Source: a virus. Taken from it: DNA of 64,000 nucleotides. The notes beneath the pieces were generated by a model, which searched no databases, was not told the origin of the DNA, and was given only the letters and a program-made list of their open reading frames with translations. Below, piece after piece: positions 3,793-60,275 of this stretch. Position 1 is the first letter of the stretch. Each line of letters opens with the position of its first letter. The position numbers were made by a program, and so were the translations under genes. Where the stretch lies: the IMG/VR virus record IMGVR_UViG_3300027788_001769, positions 62,001-126,000 of that record, one strand, 5' to 3'.

Positions 3793-3817
3793 AATTGACT
3801 AATTCCATTATTCTTTG
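3787..3817 (+). promoter_or_regulatory. Weak host-type promoter candidate before sugar block
   Basis: Just after the terminator, TTTT (3787-3790) and TATTCTTTG (3809-3817) resemble the Bacteroidota -33 and -7 (TAnnTTTG) elements, with one extra base in the -7 box and an 18-bp spacer. Position is right for transcription of the gene at 3845. The match is imperfect. Confidence 0.25.
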
Positions 3818-3844
3818 TACTTTTTCATAAAAGAAATTAATTTT

Positions 3845-5068
3845 ATGGCTAAATACAAAATACTAGTAATACCGAGTGACAGAACCGGTGTTTCCAAATT
3901 CCGTTCAGTAGACCCACATTTATGTTTACAAAAATTATACCCTAAAGAGTTTTGGGTGGATATTGATTACGAACCTAAATTAGACAACCCAGAATGGTTA
4001 AAACAATACGATTTAATACACTACCACAGGAGTTTACATCCAGACTATAATTTAGCACAGAAATTTTCAGAAAAAATTAATAAGTTAGGTATTCCAGCAA
4101 TTATGGACCTGGACGATTATTGGTTACCCAATAAAGAACACCCTGCTTATATGTTAGTTAAAGGTAGAAAAATGGATGAATTAATCCTTGAGAATTTAAA
4201 AAGAGCTCAACACGTGACTACCACAACACCTATATTTGCCAAAGAAATAGAGAAATTTTGTAAAAGTGTGTTTGTTTTAGAAAATGCGATAGACCCAAAA
4301 GAAAAACAATTTATTCACAAACCAGAACCTAGTGATAGGGTTAGGGTTGGTTGGTTAGGTGGTTCATCACATATGGCAGATTTAGAAATTTTAAATGGTG
4401 TTTCACAGAAACTAACACCCTTTAAAGATGTATCACAATTTGTGCTGTGTGGTTTCGATACTCGTGGTAATGTAACCATGATTGACGAAAAAACCGGTAA
4501 ACAAACAACAAGGGACATAACACCTAAAGAATCAGTTTGGTTTAAGTACGAACAATTATTTACCGATAACCATAATTGGTTGACTGAAGAACAGAAAAAA
4601 GTTTTAATGAAATTTAAGTTTGGTGAAGAATATGTTGACACAGATACTTCCTATAGGAGAGTTTGGACCAAACCAATAACCACTTACGCTTCCAACTATA
4701 ATAAATTTGACATTAGTCTTGCACCACTTAAACACCATATGTTTAATAAAGTTAAGTCACAGTTAAAAGTTATTGAGGCTGGTTTCCATAAAAAAGCCCT
4801 TATAGCTCAGGATTTTGGTCCTTACCAAATAGATTGTATTAACGCATATGAAAGAGGTGGCACCATAAACGATAAGGGAAATGCTCTACTAGTTCCTGAA
4901 TCTAAAAATCACAAATTATGGTACCAACACATAAAAAGGTTAATCACCAACCCCGAATTAGTTAAAGATTTAGGTGAAAGATTATACGAGACGGTTCAGA
5001 AGTACCATATTGACCGAGTAACAGAAAGAAGGGCAGAAATATATAGAGAATTAATAAGAAAAGCATAA
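3845..5068 (+). CDS. GT-B glycosyltransferase (GT4-like)
   Basis: A 407-residue enzyme with the two-lobed GT-B pattern. It has an N-terminal lobe with LIHYHRSLHPDY and MDLDDYW, a linker with NAIDP, and a second lobe opening with VGWLGGSSHMADLE and closing with VIEAGFHKKALIAQDFG, the position of the acidic donor-binding residue in GT4 enzymes. It should transfer a sugar from a nucleotide donor; donor and acceptor are unknown. An ATG 30 nt upstream is in frame, but the ATG at 3845 (MAKYKILVIPS) starts directly at the first beta strand and is preferred. It opens the sugar block. Confidence 0.8.
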   Translation: MAKYKILVIPSDRTGVSKFRSVDPHLCLQKLYPKEFWVDIDYEPKLDNPEWLKQYDLIHYHRSLHPDYNLAQKFSEKINKLGIPAIMDLDDYWLPNKEHPAYMLVKGRKMDELILENLKRAQHVTTTTPIFAKEIEKFCKSVFVLENAIDPKEKQFIHKPEPSDRVRVGWLGGSSHMADLEILNGVSQKLTPFKDVSQFVLCGFDTRGNVTMIDEKTGKQTTRDITPKESVWFKYEQLFTDNHNWLTEEQKKVLMKFKFGEEYVDTDTSYRRVWTKPITTYASNYNKFDISLAPLKHHMFNKVKSQLKVIEAGFHKKALIAQDFGPYQIDCINAYERGGTINDKGNALLVPESKNHKLWYQHIKRLITNPELVKDLGERLYETVQKYHIDRVTERRAEIYRELIRKA

Positions 5069-5094: not shown

Positions 5095-5526
5095 ATGGCA
5101 GAAGTAGTAATTAACGACAAAGTAAAGACCCACGAAGAGGGCAACCACATATATGTTGGAACCTATAAAGGGAAAAAATTCCGTACAAGTATGGAAGATA
5201 TGAATGAAGATAGAAAACTTGTTTACCAAGAAGGTGAGGAAAACTTTGACGAGGAGGAAAAGAAGGTAATATACCAACAGTTAGATGAAATGACCTATAT
5301 TAGACCTGACGAAAAAGGTGACGAAAATAGTGTAATCGTAGAAAAAGACTATGAAGACTGGTGGGCTTTTAAGTTTGAGTGTTATGGTTCTTATGGAGAA
5401 CACAAATTTGTAGTGTTAGAGGAAAGTGATGACAATGGTGGTGACGCTACTTTTGTGGAAGGTGAAGATAAATTTAGTGAAGAAGAACAAGAATTAATTT
5501 ACGAAGCAGTAAATGAATACATGTAA
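5095..5526 (+). CDS. Acidic hypothetical protein with internal duplication
   Basis: A 143-residue, very acidic protein of unknown function. Two segments resemble each other: about residues 42-67 (YQEGEENFDEEEKKVIYQQL) and about 118-142 (FVEGEDKFSEEEQELIYEAV), so the protein seems to consist of two copies of a roughly 70-residue unit. The leader before the ATG has three repeats of ATTAAAAA and no Shine-Dalgarno sequence. High acidity and small size are seen in DNA-mimic or inhibitor proteins, but that is speculation. Confidence 0.6.
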   Translation: MAEVVINDKVKTHEEGNHIYVGTYKGKKFRTSMEDMNEDRKLVYQEGEENFDEEEKKVIYQQLDEMTYIRPDEKGDENSVIVEKDYEDWWAFKFECYGSYGEHKFVVLEESDDNGGDATFVEGEDKFSEEEQELIYEAVNEYM

Positions 5527-5527
5527 C

Positions 5528-5776
5528 ATGACTAAATTACCAAAGTGGTTTACAGGAGAGTTATATGAAGAAGGTGGTATGGTTAGTAATAGATTTTCAG
5601 GTGAAGAATACCAACTAACATCAGAGGAACTATCAATGTATGATTTTATTATGGGCGCAACAATTATGATGGAAATGAATATAAAGTACGATACCCAAAT
5701 GATTGCCGACCTACGAAAAGGTCTGGAGTGGTTTAGAGAAAATAATAGTAAGGCCTATATGGTCTTATTAGATTAA
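5528..5776 (+). CDS. Small conserved-type phage protein
   Basis: An 82-residue acidic protein beginning MTKLPKWFTGELYEEGG, with LTSEELSMYDFIMGA in the middle and ending DLRKGLEWFRENNSKAYMV. The pattern matches my memory of a small protein found in many marine T4-like phages (unverified), with no known function. Start choice: an in-frame ATG at 5513 lies inside the preceding gene; the ATG at 5528, one base after that gene's stop, is preferred. Confidence 0.65.
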   Translation: MTKLPKWFTGELYEEGGMVSNRFSGEEYQLTSEELSMYDFIMGATIMMEMNIKYDTQMIADLRKGLEWFRENNSKAYMVLLD

Positions 5777-5882: not shown

Positions 5883-6062
5883 ATGGCAGTAGAAATCAAT
5901 ATTATAGAAAACGGACCTATCTTGGTCAAAGGAGAAACCACAGTAACAAAGGGTGGGGAAAAAGTAACAGTTAGTGAAAATTATGCGTTGTGTAGATGTG
6001 GGAAGAGTAAGGCCCAACCAATGTGTGATGGAACACATAAATCAGAAAATTTTAAAGGATAA
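5883..6062 (+). CDS. CDGSH iron-sulfur domain protein
   Basis: A complete 59-codon gene. The C-terminal half carries CRCGKSKAQPMCDGTH, an exact match to the CDGSH (zf-CDGSH, mitoNEET-type) signature C-x-C-x2-S-x3-P-x-C-D-G-[SAT]-H. Predicted [2Fe-2S] ligands are C37, C39, C48 and H52. Residues 1-34 form a beta-rich lead-in (VKGETTVTKGGEKVTV). Single-motif bacterial proteins of this size occur in cells as redox or Fe-S handling proteins; finding one among phage nucleic-acid genes is unusual. The A-rich leader (AAAAAATAAAA) contains no Shine-Dalgarno. It is followed after 4 nt by the gene at 6067. Its job in infection is unknown. Confidence 0.85.
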   Translation: MAVEINIIENGPILVKGETTVTKGGEKVTVSENYALCRCGKSKAQPMCDGTHKSENFKG

Positions 6063-6066
6063 ATAT

Positions 6067-6300
6067 ATGTACTATCAAGCAATCGTAGCATTCGAAACCG
6101 GGGCGTTAGACAGTGAAGGAACACCCAAAGTTAAAAAATTTAAATATATTGTAGAATCAGAATCAGTTTTTGAGGCTAACAAAAGACTATCTCATTATCT
6201 TTCAGAAGATACTAGAGATTCAGAAGTTATATCTGTCATTAAAGCACCTTATGAAGATATTTTACATCCGGAACTAACACCAAATTATTACAAACAATGA
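6067..6300 (+). CDS. Small hypothetical protein
   Basis: A 77-residue protein, MYYQAIVAFETGALDSEG..., with alternating hydrophobic strands, then a helix (VFEANKRLSHYLSED) and a final strand (EVISVIKAPYEDIL). The layout recalls the small DUF4494-type proteins of Bacteroidota but I am not certain. The frame is open further upstream to 5974, but that stretch overlaps the CDGSH gene in another frame; the ATG at 6067 is the natural start. It overlaps the exonuclease gene by 4 bases (ATGA). Confidence 0.6.
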   Translation: MYYQAIVAFETGALDSEGTPKVKKFKYIVESESVFEANKRLSHYLSEDTRDSEVISVIKAPYEDILHPELTPNYYKQ

Positions 6301-7001
6301 TTGACAACATAAACAAATTATTATTTCTAGATATAGAAACCGTAGGTCTTTATTATGACCTAGATGATTTACATCATCAGTCCCCACAACTACATAAGGT
6401 TTGGGAAGATAGTGGTTATGGGTATTTTAAAAGACAATACCCTGAGGATTCGGAATTAACAAGTGATGATATGTTTATGAAACGTGCTGGTCTTTTAGCA
6501 GAGTTTGGAAAAATAGTTTGTATCTCTGTTGGTTTTGTTTTAGAAAATGGGAATACTAAGTTGGATAGTTTTATTGGTACGGAAAAAGAAATATTATCTA
6601 ATTGTTCTACCCTTTTAAATAGGGTAGATAAATTAGGTTTTCTTATTTGTGGTCATAACGTAAAAAACTTTGACCTACCGTACATTGGGAAAAGGATGAC
6701 CATAAATGGAATCGCTGTTCCAGGTATTGTCCCTAACTATAAAATAAAACCTTGGGAGTCTAGGGTTTTAGACACTAAAGAAGTTTGGAACTTTAATTCT
6801 TACAGGGGATTATCTTCTTTAGAGTTAGTGTGTGCGTCTTTAGGGATTCCAAACCCAAAGGACAATGAGGTAAATGGGGCAAATCTCCATTCTTTTTACT
6901 ATGATGCTGAGTCAAGTGAAAAAGATAAAATAGAAAAGATTAAAAACTATTGTGAAAAAGATGTTCTTTCTTTAATACAATTTGTAAAAAAAATAAAGTA
7001 A
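6297..7001 (+). CDS. DEDDy-type 3'-5' exonuclease
   Basis: A 234-residue RNase H-fold exonuclease of the PolB-exonuclease-like kind (DNA_pol_B_exo2). Exo I is FLDIETVG (D12, E14), Exo II is CGHNVKNFDLPYIGKR (D126), and Exo III is NYCEKDVLSL, the Y-x3-D form (Y218, D222). All four metal-binding acids are present. There is no polymerase domain, so it probably trims 3' ends as a stand-alone enzyme in repair or replication. It lies next to dUTPase, in a nucleic-acid mini-cluster ahead of the sugar genes. Confidence 0.85.
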   Translation: MIDNINKLLFLDIETVGLYYDLDDLHHQSPQLHKVWEDSGYGYFKRQYPEDSELTSDDMFMKRAGLLAEFGKIVCISVGFVLENGNTKLDSFIGTEKEILSNCSTLLNRVDKLGFLICGHNVKNFDLPYIGKRMTINGIAVPGIVPNYKIKPWESRVLDTKEVWNFNSYRGLSSLELVCASLGIPNPKDNEVNGANLHSFYYDAESSEKDKIEKIKNYCEKDVLSLIQFVKKIK

Positions 7002-7003
7002 TA

Positions 7004-7633
7004 ATGAAAGATTTAATAAATAAATTAAAAGATTTACGGAACGTAGCTCAAACAATACAGTCTCTTGATGAGGGTAATATGCCAACACCAAAAGAACTAC
7101 AAAAAACTATGGAAGATACACTTGGTGTTAGTATTGAGGAATTGGATAATATGGACATTTCTTCAGCTTTTGAAGATAGTCAACCTAAGGTTGAGGTAAA
7201 ATTTATCAATAAGAGTACAAATCAAAACCCATCATACATCTATAAAGGGGATAGTGGTTTTGACTTTAGAGCTAATTTAAAAGAAACAATGGTAATAGAA
7301 CCTATGGGAAGAGCCCTGGTACCAACAGGTCTGTTTTTTGAAATTCCTTTTGGTTACGAATTACAGGTAAGACCTAAAAGTGGTTTGGCAATTAAGAAAG
7401 GGATAATGGTACTCAATACCCCAGGCACTGTAGATAGCAATTATAGAGGTGAGATACAAATAATTTTAATAAATTTAAGTAAGGAAGATTACATTATAGA
7501 GCATGGTGATAGAATAGCACAAGGTGTTGTATGCCCTATACTAAATAAAGATTGGTCTGTTATGTCAGAGGTGGATGTTTTATCTCCTTCTGATAGACAA
7601 GACGGTGCTTTTGGTAGTACAGGAATAAAATAA
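7004..7633 (+). CDS. dut: dUTP diphosphatase with N-terminal extension
   Basis: Trimeric-type dUTPase that hydrolyses dUTP to dUMP and keeps uracil out of DNA. All five motifs are visible: GDSGFDFRA (82-90), RPKSGLA (123-129), NTPGTVDSNYRGE (138-150, catalytic D144), EHGDRIAQGV (167-175) and the C-terminal arm DGAFGSTG (200-207). The core starts near residue 62; the first 60 residues are an acidic, helical extension not found in standard dUTPases of about 150 residues. The function of the extension is unknown. It follows the exonuclease gene by 2 bases. Confidence 0.93.
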   Translation: MKDLINKLKDLRNVAQTIQSLDEGNMPTPKELQKTMEDTLGVSIEELDNMDISSAFEDSQPKVEVKFINKSTNQNPSYIYKGDSGFDFRANLKETMVIEPMGRALVPTGLFFEIPFGYELQVRPKSGLAIKKGIMVLNTPGTVDSNYRGEIQIILINLSKEDYIIEHGDRIAQGVVCPILNKDWSVMSEVDVLSPSDRQDGAFGSTGIK

Positions 7634-15475: not shown

Positions 15476-16623
15476 TTTATCTAACTAACGATACAATAGA
15501 CAATAAAGATATTGATTCTTTAATTGAGTGGTTAAAGACTTACCCACGATTAACAAAAGGACCTTTAACAAAAGAGTTCGAAGAAAAATGGTCTAAATGG
15601 TTAGGAACCAAATATTCAGTATATTGTAATTCTGGTTCCTCAGCTAATTTACTAATGTTATACGCACTAATACGCTCTAACACTTTAAAAAATAAAAAAG
15701 TGGTTATTCCTGGGTTATGTTGGGCTACTGACTTAGCACCTGCATTACAGCTTGAGTTTGAACCATTACTTTGTGATGTTTCATTAGATAATTTAGCTGT
15801 TGATGTTGATGAATTGGAAAAAATATTTAAGAAGGAGTCACCATCTGTGTTCCTATGTGTGTCAATACTAGGGTTTTCACCTGATTTAAAGACAATTAAA
15901 GAGCTTTGTGAAAAATATGATGTGATACTACTAGAAGATAATTGTGAGTCTTTAGGTACTGAGTTTGATGGGGTTAAGATTGGGAACTTCGGTTTGATGT
16001 CCTCTTATTCTATGTATTTTGGTCACCACATATCAACGATAGAAGGTGGTATGGTATGTACTGACGATAAAGAAATATATGACATACTTTTAAGTATTAG
16101 AAGTCATGGTTGGGATAGAGATTGGGATAAACAAAAACAGGAGGAGGTTAGAGAACAACATAACGTTACGGACTTTAACTCATTATATACATTTTACCAC
16201 CCAGGATTTAATCTAAGAGCTACTGACCTACAGGCGTACCTAGGTTTAGGTCAATTAGATAAATTAGATTACATTTGTAAAAAAAGAGAGGAAAACTTCC
16301 AAAAATTCCAGGAAGGAATAAAGAATGATTTTTGGAAACCTAACCCTCTGGATAACACATTTACTTCTAGTTTTTGTTACCCTGTAATACATCCTAAACG
16401 AAATGAGATTATCGAAGCTTTGATTGAAAACGAAATTGAGGTTCGTCCTTTAGTTTGTGGAACAATGGGTAAACAACCGTTTTATACTGAAAATTTTGGT
16501 ATTACGGAACTAGCCAATTGTGACGTTATTGACAGACATGGGTTATACGTTCCAAACAACCCTAGTTTAACGGATGATGAAATACAATTAATAATAGACA
16601 CAATTAATAAAGTTATAAAATAA
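15472..16623 (+). CDS. DegT/ColD-like PLP sugar dehydratase
   Basis: A 383-residue fold-type I PLP enzyme of the DegT/DnrJ/EryC1 family. It has CNSGSSANLLML, VIPGLCWATD, LLEDNCESLGTEFDG and HPGFNLRATDLQAYLGLGQL, all family landmarks. At the site where sugar aminotransferases carry the PLP-binding lysine, this protein has SYSMYFGHHISTIEGG, so histidine replaces lysine. That change is known from ColD (GDP-4-keto-6-deoxymannose 3-dehydratase) and the related CDP-sugar E1 enzyme, which remove the C3 hydroxyl rather than transaminate. With gmd nearby, a ColD-like role making a 3,6-dideoxy sugar is the best reading. An aminotransferase role is unlikely without the lysine. Confidence 0.82.
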   Translation: MIYLTNDTIDNKDIDSLIEWLKTYPRLTKGPLTKEFEEKWSKWLGTKYSVYCNSGSSANLLMLYALIRSNTLKNKKVVIPGLCWATDLAPALQLEFEPLLCDVSLDNLAVDVDELEKIFKKESPSVFLCVSILGFSPDLKTIKELCEKYDVILLEDNCESLGTEFDGVKIGNFGLMSSYSMYFGHHISTIEGGMVCTDDKEIYDILLSIRSHGWDRDWDKQKQEEVREQHNVTDFNSLYTFYHPGFNLRATDLQAYLGLGQLDKLDYICKKREENFQKFQEGIKNDFWKPNPLDNTFTSSFCYPVIHPKRNEIIEALIENEIEVRPLVCGTMGKQPFYTENFGITELANCDVIDRHGLYVPNNPSLTDDEIQLIIDTINKVIK

Positions 16624-17438
16624 TGAAATTCACTTACTATACAATTATAGGTAAAGACCTAGGACTACTACAAGGCCACATAAATAATATAAAAACTTAC
16701 GCTGGTTTTGATAAATTAGAGTGTGAAAAAGAACTAATCGTTATAATATATAGGAACAGTAAAATCCCTGAAAAAATAACACAATCCTTATTAAACTATT
16801 GTAAAGACCAAAATATTCGTACTGAGATATATGACGAACCTACTGACGTTTTTATTGAGAATCTTTATGCTTGTTGGAATTTAGGGTATCAAATTTCTGA
16901 CGAGGGATATGTTTTTAGAGGTGGTTCAGACCAAGTGTTTTCTAGAGATAGTTTTGTGTCCCTTTATAATGAGGCGGAAAATCTAAGAAAAGAAAATAAA
17001 AGTAAATTTATATTACAAGCCAATACAATCGAGAACGCTACTAGACTCAGACAAATAGGTGCTATTAGTAGACACTTTGCTTTAGATTTAGGTGCTACTT
17101 TTCATGAATTTAATTACGGTGGATTTGAGGATTTTTGTAATAGAATGAATACAGGTATTGCGGAAAACATATTAACAATAGAGGATTGTCTTAAGTACTG
17201 GGGAAAACCAACAAAATTAAACACGTCACTAGGTAACATTGACAGGACTGATGGTTGTTCTTGGTTAATGACCAAACAGGATTGGGTTGACCATGGCCCT
17301 TTACCACATATAGAAAATTGGATAACTGGTGATGTTGTAATACACGATAGAATGCAAACAGCTGGTTATGAAAATTATTTAGTTAAGGATTGCATAACTT
17401 ACCACTTTGTAAGGGGAGAAAGTATAGACGTACAGTAA
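16623..17438 (+). CDS. GT-A fold glycosyltransferase-like protein
   Basis: A 271-residue protein beginning MKFTYYTIIGKDLGLLQGH, with YACWNLGYQISDEGYVFRGGSDQVFS in the central region where GT2 enzymes have their acidic donor site. The C-terminal part has SWLMTKQDWVDHGPLPH and an aromatic tail. It fits a divergent GT-A transferase; no substrate can be assigned. One-base overlaps on both sides show tight packing. Confidence 0.65.
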   Translation: MKFTYYTIIGKDLGLLQGHINNIKTYAGFDKLECEKELIVIIYRNSKIPEKITQSLLNYCKDQNIRTEIYDEPTDVFIENLYACWNLGYQISDEGYVFRGGSDQVFSRDSFVSLYNEAENLRKENKSKFILQANTIENATRLRQIGAISRHFALDLGATFHEFNYGGFEDFCNRMNTGIAENILTIEDCLKYWGKPTKLNTSLGNIDRTDGCSWLMTKQDWVDHGPLPHIENWITGDVVIHDRMQTAGYENYLVKDCITYHFVRGESIDVQ

Positions 17439-18178
17439 TGGATTTTACAATAACTTTCCCATGTAGAAATAGAGTTAAAATGGCAAATAAGGCCATACAA
17501 ACTTTTTTAGAAAGTTGTGATTACACAATATTAATTATAGACGACAATAGTGATTCACCTGACGATGAATACATTAAATCCGATAGAGTTAAAGTGATTT
17601 ACAATAAGTACAAAAGTGGTTTAGTTAGTATGTGGAATCAGGCATTAAGAGAAATAGATACGGAATATGTCATTATTGGTTGTGATAAAATTAGAGTCAC
17701 AAATAACGACATATTAAGGATTGAAAATAAGTTGAAAGAGGGTTATTCTTGTGTTGCTACTTACTTACTAGGTATTTTTGGTTTTAGTAAGGAACTAACT
17801 ACTAGGGTTGGGTTTTTTGATGAGGGGTATGAAGTTAACGGGTTTGAGGACACTGATTGGATGAACAAACTTTTTATTAATAATTTATCCTTATATGTGA
17901 GTACGGAAACAGAATACCTAAATACTGGAACGAGTTGGGGTCCGGCGAACATGAAAAACTCCCAATATTACAGGAGTAAGTGGAACGAAGATTTTGGTAA
18001 CAACCAAATAATACAATTAAAAAAAGATATTAACTATAATGACATTAATATCTTTAAAGGACAATATGAAAATAAAAATTATTTAGATTGGTCTAGTAGT
18101 GAATTAAAAGCAGAAAACATAAACAATTATTACAATAATAAAAAAGGAGTAAAAAATATTTTAAATGGAAATTTATAA
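17438..18178 (+). CDS. GT2 family glycosyltransferase
   Basis: A 246-residue GT-A protein. It has FTITFPCRNRVKMANKAI as the first strand and helix, LIIDDNSDSPDDE, then VIIGCDKIRVTNND at the metal site, and VGFFDEGYEVNGFEDTDW, the acceptor-side ED motif common in GT2. Start choice: the frame is open upstream to 17390, but the ATG at 17438, overlapping the preceding stop by one base, starts exactly at the first strand. Substrate unknown. Confidence 0.78.
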   Translation: MDFTITFPCRNRVKMANKAIQTFLESCDYTILIIDDNSDSPDDEYIKSDRVKVIYNKYKSGLVSMWNQALREIDTEYVIIGCDKIRVTNNDILRIENKLKEGYSCVATYLLGIFGFSKELTTRVGFFDEGYEVNGFEDTDWMNKLFINNLSLYVSTETEYLNTGTSWGPANMKNSQYYRSKWNEDFGNNQIIQLKKDINYNDINIFKGQYENKNYLDWSSSELKAENINNYYNNKKGVKNILNGNL

Positions 18179-56205: not shown

Positions 56206-58065
56206 TTAAACTTCTTCGTATTCTACGTCAGTTATGTCTTCTTCAGACTCTTCACTAGTCTCACCAGTATCTGTATTCTCATACATTTTTTGAGATATGG
56301 ATTGCCATTTATTGTTAACTTCTTCTAACTGTTTATCAATCTCATCTAGATTCTTATCTGATATAGACGTTTTTAGTTGGGTGATGGACTCCATTAAACT
56401 TTCCTTATCACCTTCTTCGATTTTCTCACCTAACTCATTAATTTGTTTTTCTGTCTGGAAAACCATTGCGTCAGCCTCATTTAACTTATCAATTCCGTCT
56501 TTCTTTTTTTTGTCTTCCTCAGCATTACTTTCAGCTTCATCTCTCATTTTTTGTATTTCCTCATCTGTTAAACTACTACCAGACTCAATTTTAATGTTTT
56601 GTATCTTACCAGTACCTTTATCCATTGCTTTAACATCTATAATTCCATTTGCGTCGATATCAAACGTAACCTCAATCTGTGGAATACCTCTAGAAGATGG
56701 TGGGATATCCGTTAGTTGGAACCTACCTAAACTTCTATTATCACTAGACATAGGTCTTTCACCCTGTAACACATGAATGTCCACAGATGGTTGGTTATCT
56801 ACTGCTGTAGAGAACACTTGTGATTTAGATGTCGGTATTGTGGTGTTAGACTCTATTAAATTAGTCATTACGCCACCCATTGTTTCTATACCTAAGGATA
56901 GTGGGGTAACGTCCAGTAGGAGTACATCAGTTACGTCCCCACCTAAAACACCACCTTGTATTGCTGCCCCCATCGCAACTACCTCATCTGGATTAACTCC
57001 TTTAGATGGTTTTTTGTTAAATAGTTTTTCTACAGCTTCTTGTATGATAGGAATTCTAGTTGAACCACCTACTAGGATGACCTCATCTATTTCACTTACT
57101 TTTAACTTAGCATCTTTTATTGCTTTTCTACAAGGGGTAAGACTTTTTTTAATTAAATCTCCCACCATAGACTCAAACTTAGCTCTAGTCAATTCCTTAA
57201 CTAAATGTTTTGGGCCTGTGTTATCCGCTGTTAGATAAGGTAAGTTAATTTCCGTTGTCATAGAATTAGATAACTCTACTTTTGCTTTTTCAGAAGCTTC
57301 TCTTAAACGTTGTAACGCTGCAGAGTCAGAAGAAAGGTCCATACCAGTATCTGTTTTAAATTCTTTTAATAACCACTCGATTATTTTTTCATCAAAGTTA
57401 TCACCACCTAAATGGGTATCCCCGTTAGTCGACTTAACTTCAAAAACTCCACCCCCAATCTCTAGTATTGAGATGTCAAAAGTACCCCCACCTAAATCAT
57501 ACACAGCTATTGTCTTATCTTCTTTACTATCTAAACCGTAAGCCAATGCAGCTGCAGTCGGTTCATTGATTATCCTTAACACGTTTAACCCAGCGATTTC
57601 ACCAGCTTCTTTTGTAGCATTTCTTTGTTCATCATTAAAGTATGCTGGTACTGTTATAACCGCATCTGTTACTTTAGACCCCAGATAGTCCTCAGCTGTC
57701 TTTTTTAAGTTTTGTAATATAACCGCAGATATTTCTTGTGGCACATACGTTTTATCCTCGACTATAATAGATACGGTACCGTTTGTACCTTTTTCTACTT
57801 TATAAGCCATTTTTTTTGCTTCTTTACTAATCTCACTATACTTACTACCTATAAATCTCTTTACTGAGTAAACAGTATTTTCAGGGTTAGTTACTGATTG
57901 TCTTTTTGCTGGGTCACCAACAGAACGGTCTCCTCCTTTAAAGGACACTATAGATGGTGTTGTTCTTTTTCCTTCCCCATTAACGATAATGTTAGGTACA
58001 CCCCCCTCCACTACTGAGACACATGAATTTGTGGTCCCCAAATCAATTCCAATAATTTTCTTCAT
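56206..58065 (-). CDS. dnaK: Hsp70 chaperone DnaK
   Basis: A 619-residue complete Hsp70. It has [68 protein letters not shown] and linker [10 protein letters not shown], and ends in the usual acidic tail [15 protein letters not shown]. It folds and remodels proteins using ATP, in cells with DnaJ and GrpE; neither is in the window, so host partners are probably used. A phage-encoded dnaK is unusual. It ends at a strong terminator and diverges from the Clp gene. Confidence 0.97.
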
Positions 58066-58238: not shown

Positions 58239-60275
58239 ATGGAAGACCTATCTAACAATTTTTCAGAGTTTGAAAACAAAGACGAAAACAGAATGCCTAA
58301 AAAAGAAAAAACCGGTACCGCCTCAAAAACACCAATCCTAGATAACTTTTCTAGAGATTTAATTGTTCTTGCGGAAGAAGGTAAATTAGACCCAGTAGTG
58401 GGTAGAAAAGACGAAATAACTAGAATTGCTCAAATCCTTTCTAGACGTAAAAAAAATAACCCTATACTGATAGGTGAACCTGGATGTGGGAAAACTGCAT
58501 TAGTGGAGGGATTAGCTATGAGAATCCACAATGGAAAATGTCCAAGAAATTTATTGGATAAAAGAATAGTAGCTTTAGACTTAACATCTATAGTAGCAGG
58601 AACCAAATATAGAGGTCAGTTTGAGGAGAGAATGAAAGCTGTTTTAGATGAGTTATATGATAATCCAGACATTATAGTTTTTATAGACGAAATACATACC
58701 GTAGTTGGTACTGGTAACTCTTCTGGTTCTCTAGATGCTGCAAATATATTTAAACCAGCACTAGCAAGGGGTGAACTACAATGTGTAGGAGCAACAACCA
58801 TAGATGAATATAGAGAAAACATAGAATCAGATGGTGCTTTAGTTAGAAGGTTTCAGAAAGTGACGGTAGACCCAACATCTATAGAGGAAACATTACAAAT
58901 CCTTAAGAACATAAGAGACAAATATGAAGACCACCATAAGGTTAAATTTAGTGATAAATGCTTATCTATGTGTGTAAATCTAGCTGAAAGATACATTACA
59001 GATAGGGAATTCCCAGATAAAGCTATAGACATTTTAGATGAGGTAGGGGCAAAAGTTCAAGTGGAGATAGAGTACCCTAAGGAGATTGAGGACTTACGGA
59101 AAAAGATAAGTGACGTAAAAGAACAAAAAGTTAATGTTGTAAAAAACCAAGCTTTTGAACGTGCAGCGGAACTTAGGGATAAAGAAAAAAACCTAATAAC
59201 TAAATTAGAAGACACTAAACTAACTTGGGAGTCATCTTTAGAAGACACTAGAAGAGAAGTTACTGAAGATGATATTTTCAGTGTGGTTTCCCAAATGACT
59301 AAAATACCTTTAAAAAGACTAACTGATGATGAAAGTGAAAGTTTATTACAATTAGAAACTCTTTTAAATAAGTCAGTAGTGGGTCAACCACAAGCAATAA
59401 AAAAGATATCTAAAGCCATTAGAAGGAATAGGGTCGGTATTAGAGAACATAAGAAACCTATTGGAGCATTTATGTTCTTAGGGTCCACTGGAATTGGTAA
59501 GACATTATTGGCAAAAGCTATAGCAAAAGAAATTTTTGGGGACGAAAACAATTTAATTAGAGTGGATATGTCGGAATATAAAGAAAGATTTACCTCTTCC
59601 AGGCTAATAGGTTCACCTCCTGGATACGTTGGGTACAACCAAGGGGGACAACTAACTGAAGCTGTAAGAAAAAACCCTTACTCAGTTGTTCTACTTGATG
59701 AGATTGAGAAGGCTCATGAAAACATTTATGATTTACTATTACAAATATTAGATGAAGGCCATTTAACAGATGGTTTAGGTAGAAAGATTAATTTTAAAAA
59801 TACCTTAATAATAATGACTTCAAACGTGGGTAGTAGGCAACTACAGGACTTTGGTAGTGGTTTAGGGTTTATGACTAGTTCTAAACAAAGTCACGAAGAT
59901 GAGGAACAAAAAAACGTTATAACTAAGGCATTAAAAAATAAATTTAGTCCAGAGTTTTTAAACAGACTAGACGAAACTATAGTATTCAACCCTCTAGACC
60001 ATAAAAACATAAAAGAAATTGTTAAATTAGAGCTTGCTAACTTAAAAACAAGACTAGATGAAATGGGGTACAAATTTAAATTTGATGCTAGTGTAGTAAA
60101 TTATATTGCTGATGATGGGTTCGATGATAAGTTTGGGGCAAGACCAATAAAAAGAACAATACAAATAAAGATAGAGGATTATATATCTGAAGAAGTATTA
60201 AAAAGGAATATAGTTGTGGATAAATCCTATATGTTGTCTATACGTAAAAAGGACGGAAAAATTACTATAAAATAA
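58239..60275 (+). CDS. ClpC-like AAA+ unfoldase lacking the N-domain
   Basis: A 678-residue double-AAA+ Clp/Hsp100 protein. D1: GEPGCGKTALVEG (79-91) and VFIDEIHTVVG (147-157). A UVR-like segment, FERAAELRDKEKN (306-318), stands between the modules as in ClpC. D2: GSTGIGKTLLAK (415-426), VVLLDEIEKAH (483-493), and FSPEFLNRLD (569-578). At 541-544 the loop GLGF sits exactly where ClpA/ClpC carry the ClpP-binding LGF/IGF tripeptide, absent in ClpB. The Clp N-domain is missing. It may unfold proteins for the host ClpP; no clpP gene is seen in the window. Confidence 0.9.
   Translation: MEDLSNNFSEFENKDENRMPKKEKTGTASKTPILDNFSRDLIVLAEEGKLDPVVGRKDEITRIAQILSRRKKNNPILIGEPGCGKTALVEGLAMRIHNGKCPRNLLDKRIVALDLTSIVAGTKYRGQFEERMKAVLDELYDNPDIIVFIDEIHTVVGTGNSSGSLDAANIFKPALARGELQCVGATTIDEYRENIESDGALVRRFQKVTVDPTSIEETLQILKNIRDKYEDHHKVKFSDKCLSMCVNLAERYITDREFPDKAIDILDEVGAKVQVEIEYPKEIEDLRKKISDVKEQKVNVVKNQAFERAAELRDKEKNLITKLEDTKLTWESSLEDTRREVTEDDIFSVVSQMTKIPLKRLTDDESESLLQLETLLNKSVVGQPQAIKKISKAIRRNRVGIREHKKPIGAFMFLGSTGIGKTLLAKAIAKEIFGDENNLIRVDMSEYKERFTSSRLIGSPPGYVGYNQGGQLTEAVRKNPYSVVLLDEIEKAHENIYDLLLQILDEGHLTDGLGRKINFKNTLIIMTSNVGSRQLQDFGSGLGFMTSSKQSHEDEEQKNVITKALKNKFSPEFLNRLDETIVFNPLDHKNIKEIVKLELANLKTRLDEMGYKFKFDASVVNYIADDGFDDKFGARPIKRTIQIKIEDYISEEVLKRNIVVDKSYMLSIRKKDGKITIK

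Follow-up and report, generated by a model that had tools for sequence, protein, structure and literature searches.

A short accessory gene of a large T4-like phage encodes a type 4 CDGSH iron–sulfur domain protein

In this work we analysed a 64,000-nucleotide stretch of DNA (the window), which covers bases 62001–126000 of the 136,768-base virus record IMGVR_UViG_3300027788_001769, and we found that it adds a new, phage-encoded protein to the type 4 family of CDGSH iron–sulfur domain (CISD) proteins. The open reading frame (ORF) lies at window positions 5883–6062 on the plus strand, begins with ATG, ends with TAA and specifies 59 residues (MAVEINIIENGPILVKGETTVTKGGEKVTVSENYALCRCGKSKAQPMCDGTHKSENFKG). 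The initial annotation of this DNA, made from the letters alone, had proposed a phage-encoded CDGSH protein, and this identity is now secure. The protein scores 60.5 bits (E 1.9e-16) against Pfam PF09360 (zf-CDGSH), for which the curated cut-off is 29.5, and the record is that of a large T4-like phage, with genes for a T4-like major head protein, portal, terminase, tail sheath, baseplate, PolB, a helicase, a DnaB-like helicase and gp32; a search of the record for a tyrosine integrase found none. The features discussed here are listed in Table 1.

The motif had been described as an exact CDGSH signature carrying all four [2Fe-2S] ligands. The full 17-residue motif is indeed present (LCRCGKSKAQPMCDGTH), with Cys37, Cys39, Cys48 and His52 in the ligand positions, and every position fits the family consensus, hydrophobic-CXCXX(S/T)XXXP-hydrophobic-CDG(S/T/A)H (PMC3174974), but its letters read CDGTH and not CDGSH, a variant that the family allows, as S, T or A is permitted at this place (PMC3174974, PMC5859297). 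At the DNA level the window has a single match to the motif, whereas 100 shuffles gave none. The ORF is a genuine gene under selection: the conserved region opens at the ATG while the DNA upstream is not conserved (17 loci compared), and dN/dS has a median of 0.20 over all pairs and is about 0.1 against the nearest relatives. Such a short ORF on a metagenomic contig could in principle be spurious, or be host DNA in a misassembled contig. There is next to no chance of this, since each of the eight phage contigs of the clade that were searched carries a single CDGSH copy, six of these eight also carry a T4-like head protein and a terminase, conservation is confined to the ORF, and no cellular genes were seen near it; for practical purposes, a spurious ORF or contamination is ruled out by the conservation, by the hallmark phage genes and by the recurrence of the gene.

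The assignment to type 4 comes from both structure and sequence. The AlphaFold model of the monomer (pLDDT 91.5), which is not independent of the family because the alignment behind it contains cellular CISDs, has five strands and a short helix (DSSP: E4-7, E13-16, E21-23, E26-28, E33-36, H51-54). Its best solved match in Foldseek is the crystal structure of a type 4 CISD, 3tbm (TM 0.84, 1.4 Å, 57 columns); the match to type 3 is weaker (TM 0.60), and types 1 and 6 also rank behind 3tbm. A profile search likewise places 3tbm at the top, with a full-length sequence match. Type 4 CISDs have five consecutive strands, the Fe–S module and a short helix, and more than 90% of them have K or R after the His ligand (PMC3174974). 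The phage protein has this strand/helix topology, the P motif and Lys53, which is invariant in 19/19 phage sequences, a Thr standing in its place in the divergent viral sequence L166. It is not of the membrane-helix type, as its P motif is N-terminal and its chain stops seven residues past the His ligand. Like the Ralstonia solanacearum protein RsCISD (3tbm), it has one CDGSH motif, an N-terminal P motif, the same topology and a Lys after the His; it differs from RsCISD in being encoded by a phage, in being only about 40% identical to it and only 59 residues long, and in that Thr or Ala replaces the Ser of CDGSH throughout the phage clade (19/19 aligned sequences). With mitoNEET and NAF-1 (type 1) the phage protein shares the cluster-binding motif and a presumed [2Fe-2S] chemistry, but good superposition is limited to a module of 23–27 residues.

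The initial annotation had suggested looking for a conserved copy at the same place in related phages. Close relatives of the protein were found by tblastn at 19 IMG/VR loci, most of them at 70–95% identity, and 15 of the 19 keep the gene order of the window in whole or in part. A complete IMG/VR scan with the motif in its CRCG form returned 28 stretches, which comprise the window clade and a few more distant full-length proteins. The 19 aligned phage sequences show no variation in the four ligands, the P motif, Lys53 and most of the core, and the GP of the P motif is invariant in 41 aligned sequences that include a wider CISD set. In a tree built on few columns, whose deeper forks are unsure, the 19 phage rows (window included) form one clade with support 95/93, from which the cellular proteins sampled are excluded. 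Among the cellular proteins found, bacterial single-domain CISDs come closest to the phage protein in sequence. Those of MAG-300 and MAG-301 resemble the phage protein in domain content and length, with 53–57% identity over residues 3–59, but they fall outside the phage clade and their genes have cellular surroundings (by eye, methyltransferase-like genes and genes for adenylate kinase and peptide chain release factor 3). A scan of cellular genome contigs with narrow peptide patterns returned no CISD from Bacteroidota. Longer archaeal and bacterial CISD-containing proteins (L043–L091) align with most of the phage protein, but have about 160–350 amino acids and group by themselves in the tree with good support; they are possibly type 7 CISD-DUF1271 proteins, a candidate label.

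Work on CISD/NEET proteins treats them as proteins of cellular iron and redox biology. The phylogenetic surveys of the family that we examined do not mention viruses or phages, and we found no report of a phage CDGSH protein in the open-access PubMed Central literature. The expectation that such a gene would be missed in annotation was borne out: the protein has no family in PHROGs, no match in NCBIfam and none among the viral structures of BFVD (best match E 1.6), and 50,697 phage records gave one weak, unverified match (MT835643, 36% identity), a faecal contig without annotation. A length below common annotation cut-offs would explain why this class of genes has been overlooked.

The CDGSH gene is accessory, optional in its phage group. 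In a record with structural phage genes, it sits in a slot that the same two border genes enclose both when filled and when empty. The DUF4494-like protein encoded immediately 3′ is kept across the phage group whether or not CDGSH is present (29 loci); among the 29 contigs found by a search with it, CDGSH fills the slot in 13 and is missing from it in 16, where the slot is short or occupied by a small membrane ORF. Three of these 16 contigs have a CDGSH gene elsewhere. The exonuclease and dUTPase genes, described earlier as its neighbours, both lie downstream, but the DUF4494-like ORF intervenes. The ORFs at 5095 and 5513 are found at 6/13 CDGSH-positive and 0/16 CDGSH-negative sites (Fisher p 0.004), and they accompany CDGSH into another phage group (L028). 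There a glutamine synthetase-like gene (L028:6230-7264, by eye) lies directly 5′ of the three-gene block, in a phage context. Type 5 CISDs are fusions with glutamate synthase domains; a link with nitrogen through the L028 gene is a lead only.

The relatives show three gene contexts in all: the four loci outside the window order include L033 and L035, where the CDGSH gene lies 5′ of a HAD-like gene, and L037, where it lies 5′ of a nucleotidyltransferase-like gene (both by eye). Its synonymous divergence (pS) from the window copy is 0.24–0.50 for most relatives, reaching 0.64 in the most distant, whereas flanking genes in the same genomes (glycosyltransferase, DUF4494, dUTPase and others) mostly have values of 0.5–0.8. 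The pS below that of the flanks, the three contexts and the empty slots suggest that the gene has been horizontally exchanged between phages.

These properties lead us to a reading to which we give a probability of about 0.5, namely that this is an auxiliary metabolic or 'moron' gene whose source would be a type 4 CISD of bacteria and which would now be traded among T4-like phages, probably of Bacteroidota. Its product would form an intertwined dimer of identical chains that exposes two [2Fe-2S] clusters to solvent, each held by three Cys and one His. During infection this small soluble protein may carry electrons or donate clusters and would thereby keep host or phage redox and Fe–S enzymes running. 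We infer cluster binding, the dimer, the carrier activity, the partners and the timing; NEET proteins are reported to be redox active and their clusters to be transferable (PMC9490426, PMC9405330, PMC4598119). Supply of reducing power for nucleotide synthesis is a possibility, given the dUTPase, the exonuclease and the ribonucleotide reductase of the record. The latter is a divergent, adenosylcobalamin-dependent, RTPR-like enzyme (267 bits; record bases 16203–18134, minus strand; L095:16203-18134), whose gene adjoins replication and tail genes.

Several points weigh against the carrier or donor proposal. Radical S-adenosylmethionine (SAM), glutaredoxin and 2-oxoglutarate (2OG)-Fe(II) oxygenase genes were not detected in the record, which may be incomplete; the ribonucleotide reductase is of the adenosylcobalamin type and nothing ties it to CDGSH; we know of no bacterial type 4 CISD with an established, citable cellular role; and the low synonymous divergence could come in part from constraint on the DNA itself, although no Rfam match to an RNA element beneath the gene was found in the window. 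We thus discarded radical SAM and glutaredoxin as candidate partners encoded in the record, and likewise a 2OG-Fe(II) oxygenase link for the window clade, no such oxygenase lying within 2 kb of 25 distinct full-length viral CDGSH sequences, mostly of this clade. In L033 the opposite strand carries a glutaredoxin gene at a distance of about 2.4 kb from CDGSH, and L035 has a similar ORF.

The protein might instead serve as a cluster reservoir or in repair, its main task then being the transfer of [2Fe-2S] or iron to a specific apoprotein of phage or host under the oxidative or nitric oxide (NO) stress of infection, not electron relay. We consider this about half as probable as the carrier or donor role. 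NEET clusters are labile and transferable (PMC4598119, PMC6006223), and a DnaK and a ClpB/ClpA-like ATPase encoded in the record hint at protein quality control; but this DnaK scores as DnaK and not as the Fe–S chaperone HscA, and no Fe–S client was recognised in the examined part of the record. It is rather unlikely that the protein is a regulator or counter-defence factor, for example a decoy, sensing redox state or NO, that would change the stress responses of the host or block a defence. Its high conservation (mostly 70–95% identity, dN/dS about 0.1–0.2) is atypical for arms-race proteins and all cluster-pocket features of cellular CISDs are kept, even though the variable slot between conserved genes is a frequent site of morons and anti-defence genes, two ORFs of unassigned function (5095 and 5513) travel with the gene, and reduced mitoNEET binds NO (PMC9490426). 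Pfam names the family a zinc finger, and a small zinc-binding or purely structural protein could keep the motif without an Fe–S cluster; we hold this to be improbable, as no sequence of the phage clade departs from the ligand set, the lid proline or the cluster-pocket residues P, D and G, and the nearest relative of solved structure has a [2Fe-2S] cluster (PMC3174974).

CDGSH modules are also found in other environmental viral contigs. Scanning IMG/VR with the bare motif gave at least 119 stretches (L100–L218). Among the matches listed, most are motif-only peptides of 24–60 residues or fused modules, not full CISDs, and a contig has up to three CDGSH places. The motif-only peptides occur on many viral contigs among the matches listed (e.g. 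L161, L110, L153), and those tested against PHROGs had no match there. Modules are fused N-terminally to different 2OG-Fe(II) oxygenases (L106:5136-5978, L107:8635-9366, L216:2756-3634), and other CDGSH peptides sit within arrays of up to nine ORFs for such oxygenases. An oxygenase lies within 100 bases of the motif-only or fused forms in 27/84 cases, where random placement within the same stretches would give 19.1; the clustering is therefore mostly regional. Other modules are C-terminal on WYL_2 (PF10902) proteins (L104, L117, L137, L145, L223), or on proteins of about 70 amino acids with a short, possibly SH3/KOW-like N-terminal part, by eye (L109, L115, L127, L159, L176 and others). The motif-only and fused groups tested have median pN/pS of 0.10–0.65, and two checked contigs with such forms carry a T4-like head protein. 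These short modules do not have the strands that form the CISD dimer, and their cluster binding is only putative. A tentative, rather doubtful extension would make the window gene one case of a use of CDGSH modules that is widespread among environmental phages but has gone unrecognised, in which full type 4, motif-only and fused forms (with a 2OG-Fe(II) oxygenase, a WYL_2 SH3-barrel or another short N-terminal domain) would be phage-specific [2Fe-2S] or iron modules supplying electrons or iron to phage enzymes.

The host of the phage is likely a member of the Bacteroidota, because translation starts have A-rich leaders with a Shine–Dalgarno core in only 8/93, DUF4494 was matched in one of 14 control genomes, that of a Bacteroides, and the terminase is nearest (27–29%) to those of an uncultured phage, a Microcystis phage and Flavobacterium phages. 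Downstream of the dUTPase gene, about 25 plus-strand genes (7640–31000) are mostly of sugar-nucleotide, aminotransferase, methyltransferase and glycosyltransferase types, which suggests that the phage makes or modifies a surface glycan. The DnaK gene (56206–58065, minus strand) is complete (TIGR02350, 946 bits, above cut-off), which is unusual in a phage, and adjoins that of the ClpB/ClpA-like ATPase (58239–60275). A giant ORF of 3,826 amino acids runs on the minus strand from 61027 past the window end (record bases 123027–134507); its in-window part has no PHROG match.

Table 1. The CDGSH gene, its motifs and its neighbours (window positions)
Feature	Position	Strand	Evidence
CDGSH iron–sulfur domain protein, 59 amino acids, type 4 CISD-like	5883–6062	+	Pfam, AlphaFold, Foldseek
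P motif near the N-terminus, GPILV (residues 11–15)	5913–5927	+	Sequence; definition from PMC3174974
CDGSH motif CRCGKSKAQPMCDGTH, ligands Cys37, Cys39, Cys48, His52	5991–6038	+	Exact motif match
Lys53 immediately after the His ligand, type 4 hallmark	6039–6041	+	Sequence, alignment
Glycosyltransferase-like protein, left border of the variable slot	3815–5068	+	phrog_7162, 136.6 bits; beside filled and empty slots
Acidic protein, 143 amino acids, travels with CDGSH	5095–5526	+	CDGSH-positive loci only; block with CDGSH in L028
Protein of 82–87 amino acids, travels with CDGSH	5513–5776	+	Co-occurrence with CDGSH
DUF4494-like protein, 77 amino acids, immediately 3′ of the CDGSH gene	6067–6300	+	PF14902, E 1.8e-4, below cut-off
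3′–5′ exonuclease, DnaQ/PolB-exo type	6297–7001	+	phrog_25228, 126 bits; PF13482, PF10108
dUTPase	7004–7633	+	phrog_135, 172 bits; PF00692

In conclusion, the existence of a strongly conserved phage branch of the type 4 CISDs, traded between phages, suggests that some phages gain by bringing their own [2Fe-2S] protein. A gene of 59 codons that is present or absent at one slot is a clean genetic system in which to address the role of type 4 CISDs.
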